Shown here: positions 1 through 11,538 of the stretch, in pieces
How positions within the stretch are numbered: position 1 is the stretch's first letter
Layout: every line of letters begins with the position of its first letter
From: Streptomyces roseochromogenus subsp. oscitans DS 12.976
GTDB taxonomy: Bacteria > Actinomycetota > Actinomycetes > Streptomycetales > Streptomycetaceae
Assembly: GCF_000497445.1 (NCBI RefSeq)
Contig: NZ_CM002285.1
Location: forward strand, 4,070,806-4,097,881
Direction of reading: 5' to 3'
DNA: 27,076 bases
The notes under the pieces: model-generated
The model's input: the letters and a program-made list of their open reading frames with translations, nothing else
Databases searched by the model: none
Told to the model about the DNA's origin: nothing
Made by a program: the position numbers and the translations under genes

Positions 1-678
1 TTCGCGGGCACGCGCGCGCAGCGCCTCCTGCGCGGCGTGTCGGTCACGGCCGGCGAACAGCGCGCGGGACAAGGCGAGCGCGGTCAGCCGCTCCTCCGGG
101 GAGAGATAGCGGTTGCGGCTGGACAGGGCGAGCCCGTCCGCCTCGCGCACGGTCGGTACGGCGACGATCTCGATGCCGAAGTTCAGGTCCCGCACCATGC
201 GCCGGATCAGGGCCAGCTGCTGGGCGTCCTTCTGCCCGAACAGGGCCACGTCGGGACGCGTGAGGTGCAGCAGCTTGGCGACGACGGTGAGCATGCCGTC
301 GAAGTGGCCGGGCCGCGAGCCGCCCTCCAGGCGCTCGCCCATGGGGCCCGCGGTGATGCGGACCTGAGGGTCGCCGCCGGGGTAGACCTCGTCCACGGAG
401 GGCGCGAACACCGCGTCCGCACCGGCCTGTTCGGCGATCTTCAGGTCGGCTTCGAGGGTGCGCGGATAGCGGTCCAGGTCCTCGCCCGCGCCGAACTGCA
501 GCGGGTTGACGAAGACGGTGACGACGACCTCGCCCTCGGGGCCGGCGATCTCCCGCGCGGAGCGGATCAGGGTGGCGTGGCCCTCGTGCAGGGCGCCCAT
601 GGTCATCACGACGGCGCGGCGGCCGCTCCGCACGCGCGCGTGCAGCTCGTCGGCGGTGCTCAGCAGGACGGTGGTCAT
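1..678 (-). CDS. panC: Pantothenate synthetase (pantoate-beta-alanine ligase), 3' part outside the window
   Basis: Condenses pantoate and beta-alanine with ATP to pantothenate, the CoA precursor, in the cytosol. I translated 226 codons from the ATG at 678 to the left edge without a stop. The protein begins [12 protein letters not shown]. It has the nucleotide-binding HxGH-type motif in TMGALHEGH near residue 30, the VFVNPLQF segment, a central [13 protein letters not shown] stretch, [10 protein letters not shown], and the SSRNRYLS motif that plays the KMSKS role. The family is usually about 280-330 residues, so the C-terminal part lies outside the window. The start ATG overlaps the TGA of the upstream DUF2520 gene (ATGA at 678-675), so the two are probably translationally coupled in one minus-strand operon. 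Identity is very secure; only the end is unseen. Confidence 0.97.
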
Positions 679-1637
679 CGGTCGTTCCCCTCGGTGCCGT
701 GAGTGCCGTTCGTGCCGCCGCCGTTCGTGCCGCCGGCGCCGTCGGCCAGCACGCCGAGCAGGTCCTCGGCGAGTTCGGGCTTCAGCAGGCCGTGCGCGAG
801 CGCCCGGTCGGCGGTCGCGCGGGCCATCGCGACATAGCCCGCGACGGTCTGCGGGGCGTGCTTGCGCAGCTCGGTGATGTGCGCGGCGACCGTGCCGGCG
901 TCCCCGCGCGCGACGGGCCCGGTGAGCGCCGTGTCGCCCGAGCGCAGCGCGTTGTCCAGGGCTGCGCCGAGCAGCGGGCCGAGCATCCGGCCGGGCGCTT
1001 CGACGCCCGCCGTGCGCAGCAGCTCCATGGACTGGGCGACCAGGGTCACCAGATGGTTGGCGCCGAGTGCGAGGGCCGCGTGGTAGAGCGGGCGGTTCTG
1101 CTCGCTGATCCACTCCGGTTCGCCGCCCATCTCGATCACGAGGGCCTCGGCGGCCAGGCGCAGCTCCTCGGGCGCGGTGACACCGAAGGAGCAGCCGGCG
1201 AGGCGCTGGACGTCCACGGGGGTGCCGGTGAAGGTCATCGCCGGGTGCAGGGCCAGCGGCAGCGCGCCCACGCGCGTGGCCGGATCGAGGACCCCCGCGC
1301 CGTAGCGGCCGGAGGTGTGCACGAGCAGCTGTCCCGGCCGTACGGCGCCGGTCTCGACGAGGCCGCCGACCAGGCCGGGCAGGACGTCGTCGGGGACGGT
1401 GAGCAGCACCAGGTCGGCGCGGGTCAGGACCTCGGCGGGCGGCACCAGCGGCACGTCCGGGAGCATGGTCTCGGCGCGCCTGCGGGAGGCGTCGGAGACG
1501 CCGGAGACGGCCACCGGGCGGTGTCCGGCGAGCTGGAGGGACGCGGCGAGCGCGGGGCCCACGCGGCCGGCGCCGACGACGCCGACGGTGAGCCGCGCGG
1601 GGCGGTCCTTGATGTCTGGCTGGTGGACTGTACTCAC
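675..1637 (-). CDS. Rossmann-fold / DUF2520 dehydrogenase-like protein; candidate PanG-type ketopantoate reductase
   Basis: 320 residues from a GTG at 1637, with a GGAAGG-type ribosome site about 10 nt upstream. The N-terminal dinucleotide-binding fold is visible as [13 protein letters not shown] (about residues 18-30), followed by a [10 protein letters not shown] strand and [14 protein letters not shown]. The C-terminal DUF2520 helical domain includes LHPAMTFTG, the [19 protein letters not shown] segment and [11 protein letters not shown]. Its stop overlaps the panC start. Families of this type sit beside panC in many actinobacteria, and a DUF2520-like protein (PanG of Francisella) has been shown to reduce ketopantoate; assigning that reaction here is inference from context. 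The last 20 residues are a Gly/Thr/Asn-rich tail made by a tandem repeat at 705-734 and are unlikely to matter for the fold. Confidence 0.85.
705..734. repeat. 15-bp tandem duplication in the DUF2520 tail
   Basis: Two perfect head-to-tail copies of GCCGTTCGTGCCGCC (705-719 and 720-734). Read on the minus strand they encode the GGTNGGGTNG part of the C-terminal tail. The tandem arrangement suggests a slippage expansion at a tolerant protein end. Confidence 0.85.
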
Positions 1638-7042: not shown

Positions 7043-8362
7043 GTGACGGATGAGACGGCACCGGAAGCTGAACCGCCCGGACGCACCAGGGGCACCGGGC
7101 ACGACGCACGCGCCCGACCCGGCCGGCGTGACGGTACGGGTCTGCGCGGCTGGCGTGAAGCGACCGAGGCGGCGCTGTACGGGCCCGGCGGTTTCTACCG
7201 CCGCCCGGAGGGCCCGGCCGCCCACTTCCGTACGTCCGTGCACGCCTCCCCGCTGTTCGCGCAGGCCGTGGCCCGGCTGCTGTGCCGGGTCGACGAGGCG
7301 CTGGGACGACCCTCGGCACTGGACTTCGTCGACATGGGCGCGGGGCGCGGCGAGCTGGTCACCGGAGTCCTGGCCGCCCTGCCCGCCGACGTGTCCGCCC
7401 GCACGCGCGCGTACGCCGTCGAACTCGCCGACCGCCCGGCCGGACTGGACGAACGGATCACCTGGCAGGACACGCCCCCAGCCGCCGTCACAGGGCTGCT
7501 GTTCGCCAACGAGTGGCTGGACAACGTGCCCGTGGACGTCGCCGAGGCCGGCCCCGCGGGCGTGCCCCGGCTGGTGCTCGTCGCCGACGACGGCACCGAG
7601 CAGCTCGGGGAGCCGGTGACCGGCGCGGAGGCGGAGTGGCTCGCCCGGTGGTGGCCGCTGCCGGCCGAGGAGGGGCTGCGCGCGGAGATCGGGCTGCCCC
7701 GGGACCTGGCGTGGGCGTCGGCGGTGGACCGGGTGGCGCGCGGGCTCGCGGTGGCCGTGGACTACGCGCACACCGTCGACACGCGTCCCCCGTTCGGGAC
7801 GCTCACCGGCTTCAGGGAGGGGCGCGAGACGGCGCCCGTGCCGGACGGGTCGTGCGACATCACGGCGCATGTCGCACTGGACGCGTGCGCGGCGGCCCCC
7901 ACGGCGCACATGCGCTCGTGCGCGCCCTGGGACGCAGCGCGCACGACTCTCGACACGGCGCGCAGGCTCGGGGATACGGCGCGCGATCTGCAGAACACGA
8001 CGCACATCCCCTCTGACGCGTCCGGCCCGGCGTCCGGCAGGGCTCGCACGCCGCATAGGGGGGCGCGCACAACCTCAGGGGCAGCGCAGAATCCGGCGTG
8101 CACGCCCTCTGGCGCGCCGCAGCCTCCCCACGGCACAGCGCGCACGCTGCCTCCCGCACGCCTTCTCACGCAACGCGCTGCTCTGCGCGCCCTGGACATC
8201 ACCGGCGCACGCCCCCCGCTCGCGCTGGCCTCCACGGACCCCTCCGCCTACGTGCGCGCCCTCGCGAGCGCCGGCGAAGCCGCCGAACTCACCGCCCCGG
8301 GCGGTCTCGGCGACTTCGGCTGGCTGGTCCAGCCGGTTGGAATTCCGGACCCGCTCGCCTGA
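7043..8362 (+). CDS. SAM-dependent methyltransferase, MidA/NDUFAF7 family (COG1565-like)
   Basis: 439 residues from a GTG at 7043. The SAM-binding motif is [17 protein letters not shown] (about 94-110). Family-specific stretches follow: [13 protein letters not shown] (154-166, the ANE-DxxPV motif), [10 protein letters not shown] (234-243), [10 protein letters not shown] (252-261) and [11 protein letters not shown] (271-281). In eukaryotes this family (NDUFAF7/MidA) symmetrically dimethylates an arginine of the complex I subunit NDUFS2, the NuoD orthologue. Here the gene is convergent with a nuoD paralogue 23 nt away, so that paralogue is an attractive candidate substrate; this is inference. 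Residues about 285-372 are a Thr/Ala/Arg/Pro-rich, low-complexity insertion (DNA 7895-8158, with recurrent GCGCGCA cores) between [10 protein letters not shown] and [11 protein letters not shown]. Confidence 0.88.
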
Positions 8363-8385
8363 GCCAGTCGGCTTCCGGGGCCGCC

Positions 8386-9537
8386 CTATTTGTCGATGTC
8401 GCCGACCACGAAGAACATCGAGCCCAGGATCGCCACCATGTCCGCCACCAGTGTCCCCGGCAGCAGTTCGGTCAGCGCCTGGATGTTGTTGTACGACGCG
8501 GAGCGCAGCTTCAGCCGGTACGGCGTCTTCTCGCCCTTGCTGACCAGGTAGTAGCCGTTGATGCCGAGCGGGTTCTCGGTCCACGCGTACGTGTGCCCCT
8601 CAGGGGCCTTCAGCACCTTCGGCAGCCGCTGGTTGATCGGCCCGGGCGGCAGTTCGGCGAGCCGGTCCAAGCAGGCGTCGGCGAGGTCGAGCGCGTTGTG
8701 GGTCTGCTCCAGGAGCACCTCGAAGCGGGCGAGGCAGTCGCCCTCGCTCCGGGTGACGACCTTCAGGGTGTCCTGGAGATCGCCGTACGCCAGGTACGGC
8801 TCGTCACGGCGCAGGTCGAAGTCGACGCCCGAGGCGCGCGCGATGGGCCCGCTCACGCCGTAGGCGTGCACGGTCTCCGGCGTCATCGCGCCGACTCCGC
8901 GCGTGCGCCCCCGGAAGATCTCGTTGCCGAGCACCAGGTCGTCGAAGACGTCCATGCGCGAGCGCACGTCGGCGACGGCGGCACGCGCGCGTGCGGTCCA
9001 GCCGGCCGGCAGGTCCTCCTTGAGGCCGCCGACGCGGTTGAACATGTAGTGCATACGGCCGCCGGAGACCTCCTCCATGACGTTCTGGAGCACTTCGCGC
9101 TCGCGGAACGCATAGAACACCGGGGTGATGCCGCCCAGCTCCAGCGGGTAGGAGCCGAGGAACATCAGATGGTTCAGGACGCGGTTCAGCTCGGCGAGCA
9201 ACGTGCGCGTCCACACCGCGCGCTCGGGCACCTCCATGCCGAGCATCCGCTCCACGGCGAGGACCACACCCAGCTCGTTCGAGAACGCCGACAGCCAGTC
9301 GTGGCGGTTGGCGAGCACGATGATCTGCCGGTAGTCGCGCGCCTCGAAGAGCTTCTCGGCGCCGCGGTGCATATAGCCGATCACCGGCTCCGCGCGCACG
9401 ATGCGCTCCCCGTCCAGCACGAGCCTGAGCCGCAGCACGCCGTGCGTGGACGGATGCTGGGGCCCGATATTGAGCACCATGTCGGTGCTCTCTGCAGCAC
9501 CGCCGATCCCGACCGTGGTCTCCGTCGTAGGAGTCAT
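8386..9537 (-). CDS. nuoD2: Orphan NADH-quinone oxidoreductase 49-kDa subunit paralogue (NuoD2)
   Basis: 383 residues from the ATG at 9537; the open frame runs much further upstream but overlaps the PH-domain genes, and homology begins here. The family signature [13 protein letters not shown] (25-37) and the [10 protein letters not shown] motif (56-65) are clear, and the protein ends in FFVVGDIDK as NuoD proteins do. No other nuo gene is adjacent, so it is not part of a complete complex I operon. By my alignment to bovine NDUFS2, the quinone-site His59 is kept (His32) and Arg85 is kept (Arg58), but Tyr108 is Trp81 and Asp160 is Glu133. It may be an alternative subunit or a repurposed scaffold. 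A MidA-type methyltransferase gene converges on it. Confidence 0.93.
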
Positions 9538-9568: not shown

Positions 9569-10072
9569 ATGGAAACGGGGAGCCCGGAGGAGACCGGGAT
9601 ACCGGGGGACGAGCTCGTGTGGCGGGGGCTGCAGCCCGCTCTGGTGCGGGTGCGCCGGCTGCTCATGGTCCTGTGGGCGGCGGTGCTCGCGGTCGCCACC
9701 GCTCTGCTGCTGGGCCTGCTCGTGGGCCCTGTGTGGGCGGCCTTCGCGCTGCTGCCACTGGCCTTCGCCGCCTGGTGCTGGAGGCTGCTGGGACGCAACT
9801 GGCGCTCGTGGCGGTACGCCGAGCGCGCGGACGACCTGCTGATCAGCCGCGGTGTCCTGTGGCGTGAGGAGACGGTGGTGCCGTACGGGCGGATGCAGCT
9901 GGTGGAGGTCACCTCCGGGCCCATCGAGCGGCGCTTCGGGCTGGCGACCGTGCAGCTGCACACGGCGGCCGCCGCGACCGACGCCACCATCCCCGGCCTG
10001 GACCCGGCCGAGGCGGAACGGCTGCGCGACCGGCTCACCGAGCTGGGCGAGGCGCGATCGGCGGGCCTGTGA
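9569..10072 (+). CDS. Bacterial PH-domain membrane protein, YdbS-like
   Basis: 167 residues from the ATG at 9569. Two adjacent membrane segments (about 30-50 and 52-72, [19 protein letters not shown] and [18 protein letters not shown]) precede one bPH_2 (formerly DUF304) domain: [30 protein letters not shown], then the [12 protein letters not shown] strand. YdbS and YdbT form a two-gene unit in bacilli that has been linked to resistance to cyclic bacteriocins; here the pair has the same layout, with the one-domain protein first. The stop overlaps the start of the next gene (GTGA at 10069-10072), so the two are translationally coupled and probably act together at the membrane. The exact role is unknown. 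Confidence 0.9.
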
Positions 10073-11538
10073 CAACCCGGGACCACGGCGACATCCCGCG
10101 CGCCGCAACCCACGCAGACAGCACAGCCTGCATAGGCACCACGAACCGCGTGAGCGGCGCAGACGCCACAGCGGCCGTGGCGGGCGCCGGGGGCGCGGAG
10201 GGCATAGCGGGCGCTGGGAGTGCGGAGGGTACTGAGGGGCGCGCGGCCGTCAGCGAGCGCCGGCTGCATCCCGTCACGCCCTTCCGGCGGGCGTGGGCGC
10301 CGATCGCCGTACTCGCCGGATGGGCCGTGCACGACCCGGACGGAGCGCAGCAGCAGCTGGCGCGGCTGACCACCACCATGCTGCTGCTCGGGCTCGCGGT
10401 GCTGGTACCGGTGGCCGGCCTCTACGGTTTCCTGTCCTGGTGGTTCACGCACTACGCGGTCACCGACACCGAACTGCGCATCCGGACCGGCCTGTTGTTC
10501 CGGCGCACCGCGCACATCCGGCTGGAGCGCATCCAGGCCGTGGACGTCTCCCGTCCGCTCCTCGCGCGCGTGGCGGGCGTGGCGAAGCTGCGGATCGACG
10601 TCGTGGGTACGGACGACAAGGACGAACTCGCATTCCTGGGCGAGCGGGAGGCACGCGCCCTCCGCGCGGAGCTGCTCGCGCGCGCCGCGGGTTTCGCGCC
10701 CGAGACGGCGCGTGAAGTCGGTGAGGCGCCGGCGCACGAGCTCATGCGCGTGCCCCCACGCGCACTGGCGCTCTCCTTGGTGCTGACGGGCGCCACTTGG
10801 GGCTCGCTGTGCGCCGCGCTCGTCGTACCGACCGTGCTCTGGCTCACCACCCACAACCTGTGGTCGGTCCTCGCCACGGCCCTCCCGCTGTTCGGCGCGG
10901 CCGGCGCGAGCAGCGCGGGACGGTTCGCCGGCGAGTTCGACTGGAAGGTGAGCGAGTCACCGGACGGACTGCGCATCGACCACGGGCTGCTCGACCGTAC
11001 GCACGAGACGGTCCCGCCCGGCCGGGTGCAGACCGTGCGGTTCGTGGAGCCGCTGCTGTGGCGGCGGCTCGGCTGGGTGCGGGTGGAACTGGACGTGGCC
11101 GGGTCCGCCAACTCGGTGCTGGTGCCGGTCGCCCCGCGCCCGATCGCCGAGTCGGTCGTCGCACGCGTGCTGCACGGCGTGACCGTGCCGCAGGAGCAGG
11201 CGCGGCCGCCGCGGCGGGCCCGCTGGTGCGTGCCGGTGTGGTGGCGCGGGCACGGCCTCGCGGTCACCGACACGGTGTTCGCCGCCCGGCACGGCCTGCT
11301 GCGTCGCAGGCTCTCGCTGGTCCCGCACGCCAAGGTGCAGAGCGTTCGGCTGAGCCAGGGTCCCTGGCAGCGCCTCTGGCGCCTCGCGGACGTCCATGTG
11401 GACACGGGGGCGGACAAGACCGTGAAGGCCTGCCTGCGGGACGCCCAGGAGGCCGCGCGGCTCCTGCACGCCCAGGCGGAGAGGTCCCGTACGGGCCGCA
11501 GGGACGCCCGCCCCGACCGCTGGATGACCTCGGGATGA
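10069..11538 (+). CDS. Multi-domain bacterial PH-domain membrane protein, YdbT-like
   Basis: 489 residues from the GTG overlapping the previous stop. Residues 1-65 are Ala/Gly-rich and variable, partly made of a 27-bp imperfect tandem duplication (10180-10206, 10207-10233). Membrane segments follow (for example [20 protein letters not shown]) and then three bPH_2-type domains. The first starts at [20 protein letters not shown] and runs into LERIQAVDV. The second is around [21 protein letters not shown]. The third is around [18 protein letters not shown] and [11 protein letters not shown] further membrane pair ([20 protein letters not shown] and [15 protein letters not shown]) lies between domains 1 and 2. 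This matches the YdbT architecture. It is presumed to form an envelope complex with the YdbS-like partner; a role in antimicrobial-peptide tolerance is inference. Confidence 0.9.

Follow-up and report, generated by a model that had tools for sequence, protein, structure and literature searches.

Human NDUFAF7 methylates Arg85 of the complex I subunit NDUFS2 during assembly (PMC3829151). The equivalent arginine of Nqo4 is symmetrically dimethylated in Paracoccus denitrificans, and the same residue is present but unmodified in Escherichia coli (PMC3750175). This arginine is part of an inter-subunit switch: it is Arg121 of NDUFS2 in Yarrowia and Arg83 of Nqo6 in Thermus, where the NuoB arginine occupies the same space as the NuoD arginine. 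Removal of the methylase has been named as the future test of what dimethylation of this residue near the Fe-S cluster N2 contributes beyond the arginine itself (PMC8042128). Streptomyces species carry a partial second nuo cluster (nuo2), whose nuoD2 gene is located apart from it (PMC3765725, PMC8388888). Here we describe a gene pair, midA and nuoD2, in a 27,076-nucleotide stretch of the Streptomyces roseochromogenus subsp. oscitans DS 12.976 chromosome (NZ_CM002285.1, positions 4,070,806 to 4,097,881), called the window below. We propose, with a probability of roughly 0.75, that MidA serves the nuo2 complex as its own arginine methyltransferase and assembly factor, dimethylating Arg58 of NuoD2.

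The initial annotation had recognized a MidA/NDUFAF7-type gene beside a NuoD paralogue with an arginine at position 58. Profile searches confirm this convergent pair, and the CGC codon lies at the expected place (Table 1). The source genome contains one PF02636 gene and three PF00346 genes (four match rows, two of them from NuoD2).

MidA belongs to the COG1565/PF02636 family of S-adenosylmethionine (SAM)-dependent methyltransferases, its profile match being above the cut-off. Foldseek and VIA-align comparisons show that its fold agrees with solved MidA structures; general methyltransferases are also numerous in both lists, with much lower scores. Sequence identity to PDB 5ztz is 17%. The SAM-binding glycine, NE..D and DY motifs are common to MidA, 4f3n, 1zkd and 5ztz in the alignments, and in the D-I-T motif the threonine of MidA is replaced by serine in 5ztz. 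The start codon is uncertain, because the first ~33 residues are unmatched in aligned relatives. A low-complexity insert occupies residues ~286-372 of this strain's protein (window ~7900-8160) and is shorter or absent in other aligned relatives. The idea that Streptomyces MidA has lost a catalytic glutamate, suggested by a histidine in the TSPE stretch, was dropped, as this position varies across 16 relatives.

NuoD2 scores 237.3 bits with PF00346, 379 bits with NF004739 (cut-off 360) and 388.6 bits with TIGR01962, the last below the cut-off of 459.35. It carries the HRGxEK motif as MHRGAEK, in which Arg58 is the methylatable residue, and it is the only one of the three NuoD-family proteins of the genome with arginine at this site. 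NuoD1, the subunit of the main complex, has threonine (LHTG), as do 29 other first-type NuoD loci that were read and Thermus. The third PF00346/NADHdh place (G000:C1 307626-308099, G000 being the source genome; loci L003 and L008) has lysine in VHKGVEKLF; this third protein probably belongs to a hydrogenase-like complex.

NuoD2 had also been called an orphan, which is inexact: it is the displaced NuoD of the already described nuo2 cluster, found in this genome at G000:C1 ~3.805-3.818 Mb (locus L104), ~265 kb from the window. Its place in the second complex agrees with the arginine/threonine switch. Among 70 loci, each with one NuoD and one NuoB, the NuoD/NuoB residues were Arg/Thr in 44, Thr/Arg in 25 and Arg/Trp in one, so that the two subunits are reciprocal in 69/70. 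The source genome holds both states, NuoB2 with threonine (L104) and NuoD2 with arginine, and NuoB1 with arginine and NuoD1 with threonine (L148). Because NuoB1 has arginine and NuoB2 threonine, NuoD2 fits NuoB2 despite the distance between their genes, and at the level of sequence it matches the nuo2 complex at the switch. Inside the nuo2 cluster there is also a 542-aa NuoC-like frame (PF00329; L104 9605-11233, minus strand), which is outside the nuo2 gene lists in the available parts of the published descriptions.

The quinone site of NuoD2 differs as well. Trp81 stands where Thermus Nqo4 has Tyr87, and 137 distinct Arg-type NuoD proteins have tryptophan (128) or tyrosine (9) at this place. 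Judged from this substitution, acceptor handling by the second complex may be different. Diverged NuoD2 proteins in six loci (L251, L258-L261 and L265) have a degraded quinone loop (GPQHPSTHG) and retain HR[GS]xE[KR] beside MidA.

According to the initial annotation, a lack of conserved linkage outside close relatives would refute the idea; such linkage was found in two samples. The first comprised 196 genomes of the same class, searched automatically for both genes. PF02636 was present in 71 and the arginine motif in 61; both occurred in 58 genomes, MidA only in 13, the motif only in three and neither in 122. All 55 same-contig pairs lie at 0.4-11.6 kb, and they cover all 16 families with both genes; three more pairs are on different contigs. 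In the own genus both genes occur in 19/19 genomes, and in 17 of these the two starts are at most 2.3 kb apart. The 16 discordant genomes were re-read, and the 122 with neither gene are counted without re-reading. Twelve of the 13 MidA-only genomes hold, on the same contig as MidA, an Arg-type NuoD whose diverged motif the strict pattern had overlooked; the thirteenth (G293), with MidA at a contig end and only a Thr-type NuoD, remains discordant. Two of the three motif-only genomes are also explained: in G332 MidA was overlooked by PF02636, and G334 has a fragment at a contig end.

The second sample consisted of 246 evenly drawn genomes of the phylum with at least 90% completeness, in which Arg-type NuoD was located by a strict DNA pattern and MidA by PF02636; the reversed pattern, used as control, gave zero matches. 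PF02636 was found in 68 genomes and the arginine motif in 134, with both in 64, MidA only in four, the motif only in 70 and neither in 108, the last counted without re-reading. In 35/68 MidA-bearing genomes, from 13/27 families, no more than 12 kb separates MidA from an Arg-type NuoD; random placement would give ~0.5 genomes, so the adjacency is far above chance. Not one of 55 first-type NuoD places among the matches listed has MidA within 12 kb; 30 of these (our NuoD1 and the 29 others) were read as threonine and so were a few more, the rest being assigned by score, and one taken by score as first type (G176:C10) turned out on reading to be Arg type. The strict pattern had overlooked Arg-type NuoD in G176, which leaves three of the four MidA-only genomes (G089, G196 and G244) in which only Thr-type NuoD was found.

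Gene order differs between families. In 14 fetched loci from seven families of the phylum, midA closes the nuo2 operon behind antiporter genes. With an Acidimicrobiia MidA as query, the best 80 loci had titles mostly of Ilumatobacteraceae or Acidimicrobiaceae, and 75 offered at least 700 nt upstream; a NuoL/M-like gene lies on the same strand within 1.5 kb upstream of midA in 72/75 (misses: L163, L164 and L167). NuoD stretches of these Acidimicrobiia-like loci span the site in 46/47 cases, and all 46 read MHRGYEK. Two metagenome bins titled Bifidobacterium breve (L221 and L232) contain a midA close to the Acidimicrobiia type; their labels are probably wrong. In Streptomyces and in families f4, f5, f6, f14 and f15, midA is near an Arg-type nuoD that is remote from the bulk of the nuo2 genes; the two may be convergent, tandem or divergent. 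These arrangements indicate that where nuoD2 stands apart, midA stands alongside it. Genes for bPH proteins and a DUF2520 protein are often nearby; two bPH_2 genes and the DUF2520 gene recur near MidA/NuoD2 in several families, and the second complex might have the bPH proteins as partners.

Table 1. Features of the midA-nuoD2 region, in window coordinates
Feature	Position	Strand	Remarks
midA	7043..8362	+	GTG start, 439 aa; PF02636, 66.5 bits vs cut-off 23.3
nuoD2 (Arg-type NuoD, 49-kDa subunit paralogue)	8386..9537	-	ATG start, 383 aa; PF00346
Gap between midA and nuoD2 stop codons	8363..8385	.	23 nt, genes convergent
Codon CGC of NuoD2 Arg58 (presumed methylation site, MHRGAEK)	9364..9366	-	
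Codon of NuoD2 Trp81, place of Thermus Nqo4 Tyr87 (quinone site)	9295..9297	-	
SAM-binding glycine motif of MidA, 11 residues	7328..7360	+	alignments
FANEWLDN motif of MidA, E157 and D160 invariant	7502..7525	+	alignments
10-residue MidA motif, G269, D272, T274 and V277 invariant	7847..7876	+	alignments
Two bPH_2 (bacterial PH-domain) genes	9569..11538	+	same block recurrent elsewhere
DUF2520 gene	675-1637	-	recurs near MidA/NuoD2

The analysis establishes the family to which MidA belongs, its fold and conserved motifs, the linkage and co-occurrence of the genes and the arginine/threonine switch; that methylation occurs, at which residue, how symmetrically, when, and with what consequence for assembly is inferred. 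MidA would use SAM to dimethylate Arg58 in the HRGxEK motif of NuoD2, most likely symmetrically, either ahead of the docking of NuoD2 on NuoB2 or in the course of it. As in mitochondria, the modified side chain would then pack close to N2, the terminal Fe-S cluster. Such an enzyme would be dispensable for the main complex, where NuoB1 supplies the arginine at N2 and NuoD1 has threonine. MidA is thus probably a dedicated maturation enzyme of the second complex I in Streptomyces and many other actinobacteria.

Several observations weigh against this proposal. One class genome (G331) has NuoD2 without MidA, and the three phylum genomes named above carry MidA and only a Thr-type NuoD was detected in them. 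Linkage within 12 kb is missing from 33/68 MidA-bearing phylum genomes, 26 of which have the genes on different contigs, three farther apart on one contig and four no motif. Family f9 is unlinked throughout (11/11 genomes on different contigs, one assembly having only 6 contigs). The arginine motif is present in 70/178 MidA-less phylum genomes, and therefore not every Arg-type NuoD depends on MidA; nine such loci were inspected and MidA was absent within the ~10 kb fetched. Moreover, the co-occurrence statistics (Fisher values) ignore relatedness, and the family counts and varied gene order make the better argument. Arg-type NuoD proteins (MHRGFEK, LHRCQEK, LHRCFEK and similar) without a PF02636 gene occur in families f16, f18, f25, f31, f47 and others; they either stay unmodified as in E. 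coli or are modified by another enzyme. Arginine conservation alone was accordingly rejected as evidence of methylation. The earlier idea of a dedicated enzyme linked to its substrate is partly supported, by the conserved linkage and by the threonine of NuoD1.

MidA might instead act on the nuo2 complex through another residue or subunit, or as a non-catalytic chaperone of NuoD2. This would give the same linkage to nuo2 genes, and it suits G244, whose MidA adjoins NuoB2 while the fetched stretches yielded no NuoD2. We consider it unlikely, since midA stays with nuoD2 where nuoD2 is apart from nuo2, its SAM and NE..D motifs are conserved, and even diverged NuoD2 proteins beside MidA keep the arginine. 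A neighbourhood inherited without function, MidA having an unrelated substrate, appears distinctly improbable. Part of the class linkage does reflect shared ancestry, because several class families share a block made up of the DUF2520 gene, MidA, the bPH pair and NuoD2, and the f9 genomes retain both genes unlinked; yet orientation (convergent or tandem) and distance are variable, midA ends the nuo2 operon in other phylum families, and family f75 of the class has both genes in eight genomes and neither detected in its remaining listed genomes. That NuoD2 and MidA are decaying remnants without a working second complex, as the tryptophan at the quinone site, the degraded loop of some families and the insert in this MidA could suggest, is very hard to reconcile with their presence throughout the own genus of the class sample, NuoD2 scores of 780-817 bits in 8 other Streptomyces fetched and the matching threonine retained by NuoB2.

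If MidA does methylate Arg58, as we favour, a further and decidedly speculative possibility arises. A single cell would house two complexes I with opposite N2 chemistry, an unmodified NuoB arginine in one and, in the other, a NuoD arginine dimethylated by MidA. The latter complex would also lack the quinone tyrosine and, in certain families, the quinone loop as well. MidA might then stabilize or tune N2 in a complex without usual quinone reduction, and the methyl mark might help to separate the two assembly lines. Our proposal, if true, would also offer a natural controlled experiment, one complex I with the arginine and one without it, served by a single-copy candidate enzyme. It would place modification of the N2 arginine firmly outside Proteobacteria; the title of a 2018 Cell Reports paper on MidA reportedly speaks of proteobacterial origin.

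The enzyme family, the modification and nuoD2 are each already known separately. Our literature search, with most subscription papers outside its reach, found no publication connecting MidA with nuo genes in actinobacteria, and the MidA-NuoD2 pairing, both switch states in one cell and midA ending nuo2 operons were not encountered in print within that search. The initial annotation had presented such a pair as a bacterial counterpart of a mitochondrial assembly step; the modification itself was already known from one bacterium, P. denitrificans. PF02636 occurs in 3/14 control genomes, E. coli not being among them. Human NDUFAF7 and Dictyostelium MidA (PDB 5ztz, 5zu0) share with our system the enzyme family, the fold and, in the 49-kDa subunit, HRGxEK as target motif; here, however, a bacterium has two complexes I with the arginine in one alone, and the gene, whose activity is predicted, lies beside its presumed substrate or in the same operon. 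Paracoccus denitrificans likewise has a bacterial complex I with the HRG arginine, there modified, but in the available part of PMC3750175 it is a single-complex alphaproteobacterial case, for which no enzyme is named there. Published descriptions of Streptomyces nuo2 agree with ours in placing nuoD2 apart from the other nuo2 genes; their available portions (PMC3765725, PMC8388888) mention neither MidA nor the arginine, and the NuoC-like gene is additional here. Finally, Yarrowia and Thermus exhibit the same two states, NuoD arginine with NuoB threonine or the reverse, whereas here one genome holds both, and MidA accompanies the state with arginine on NuoD.
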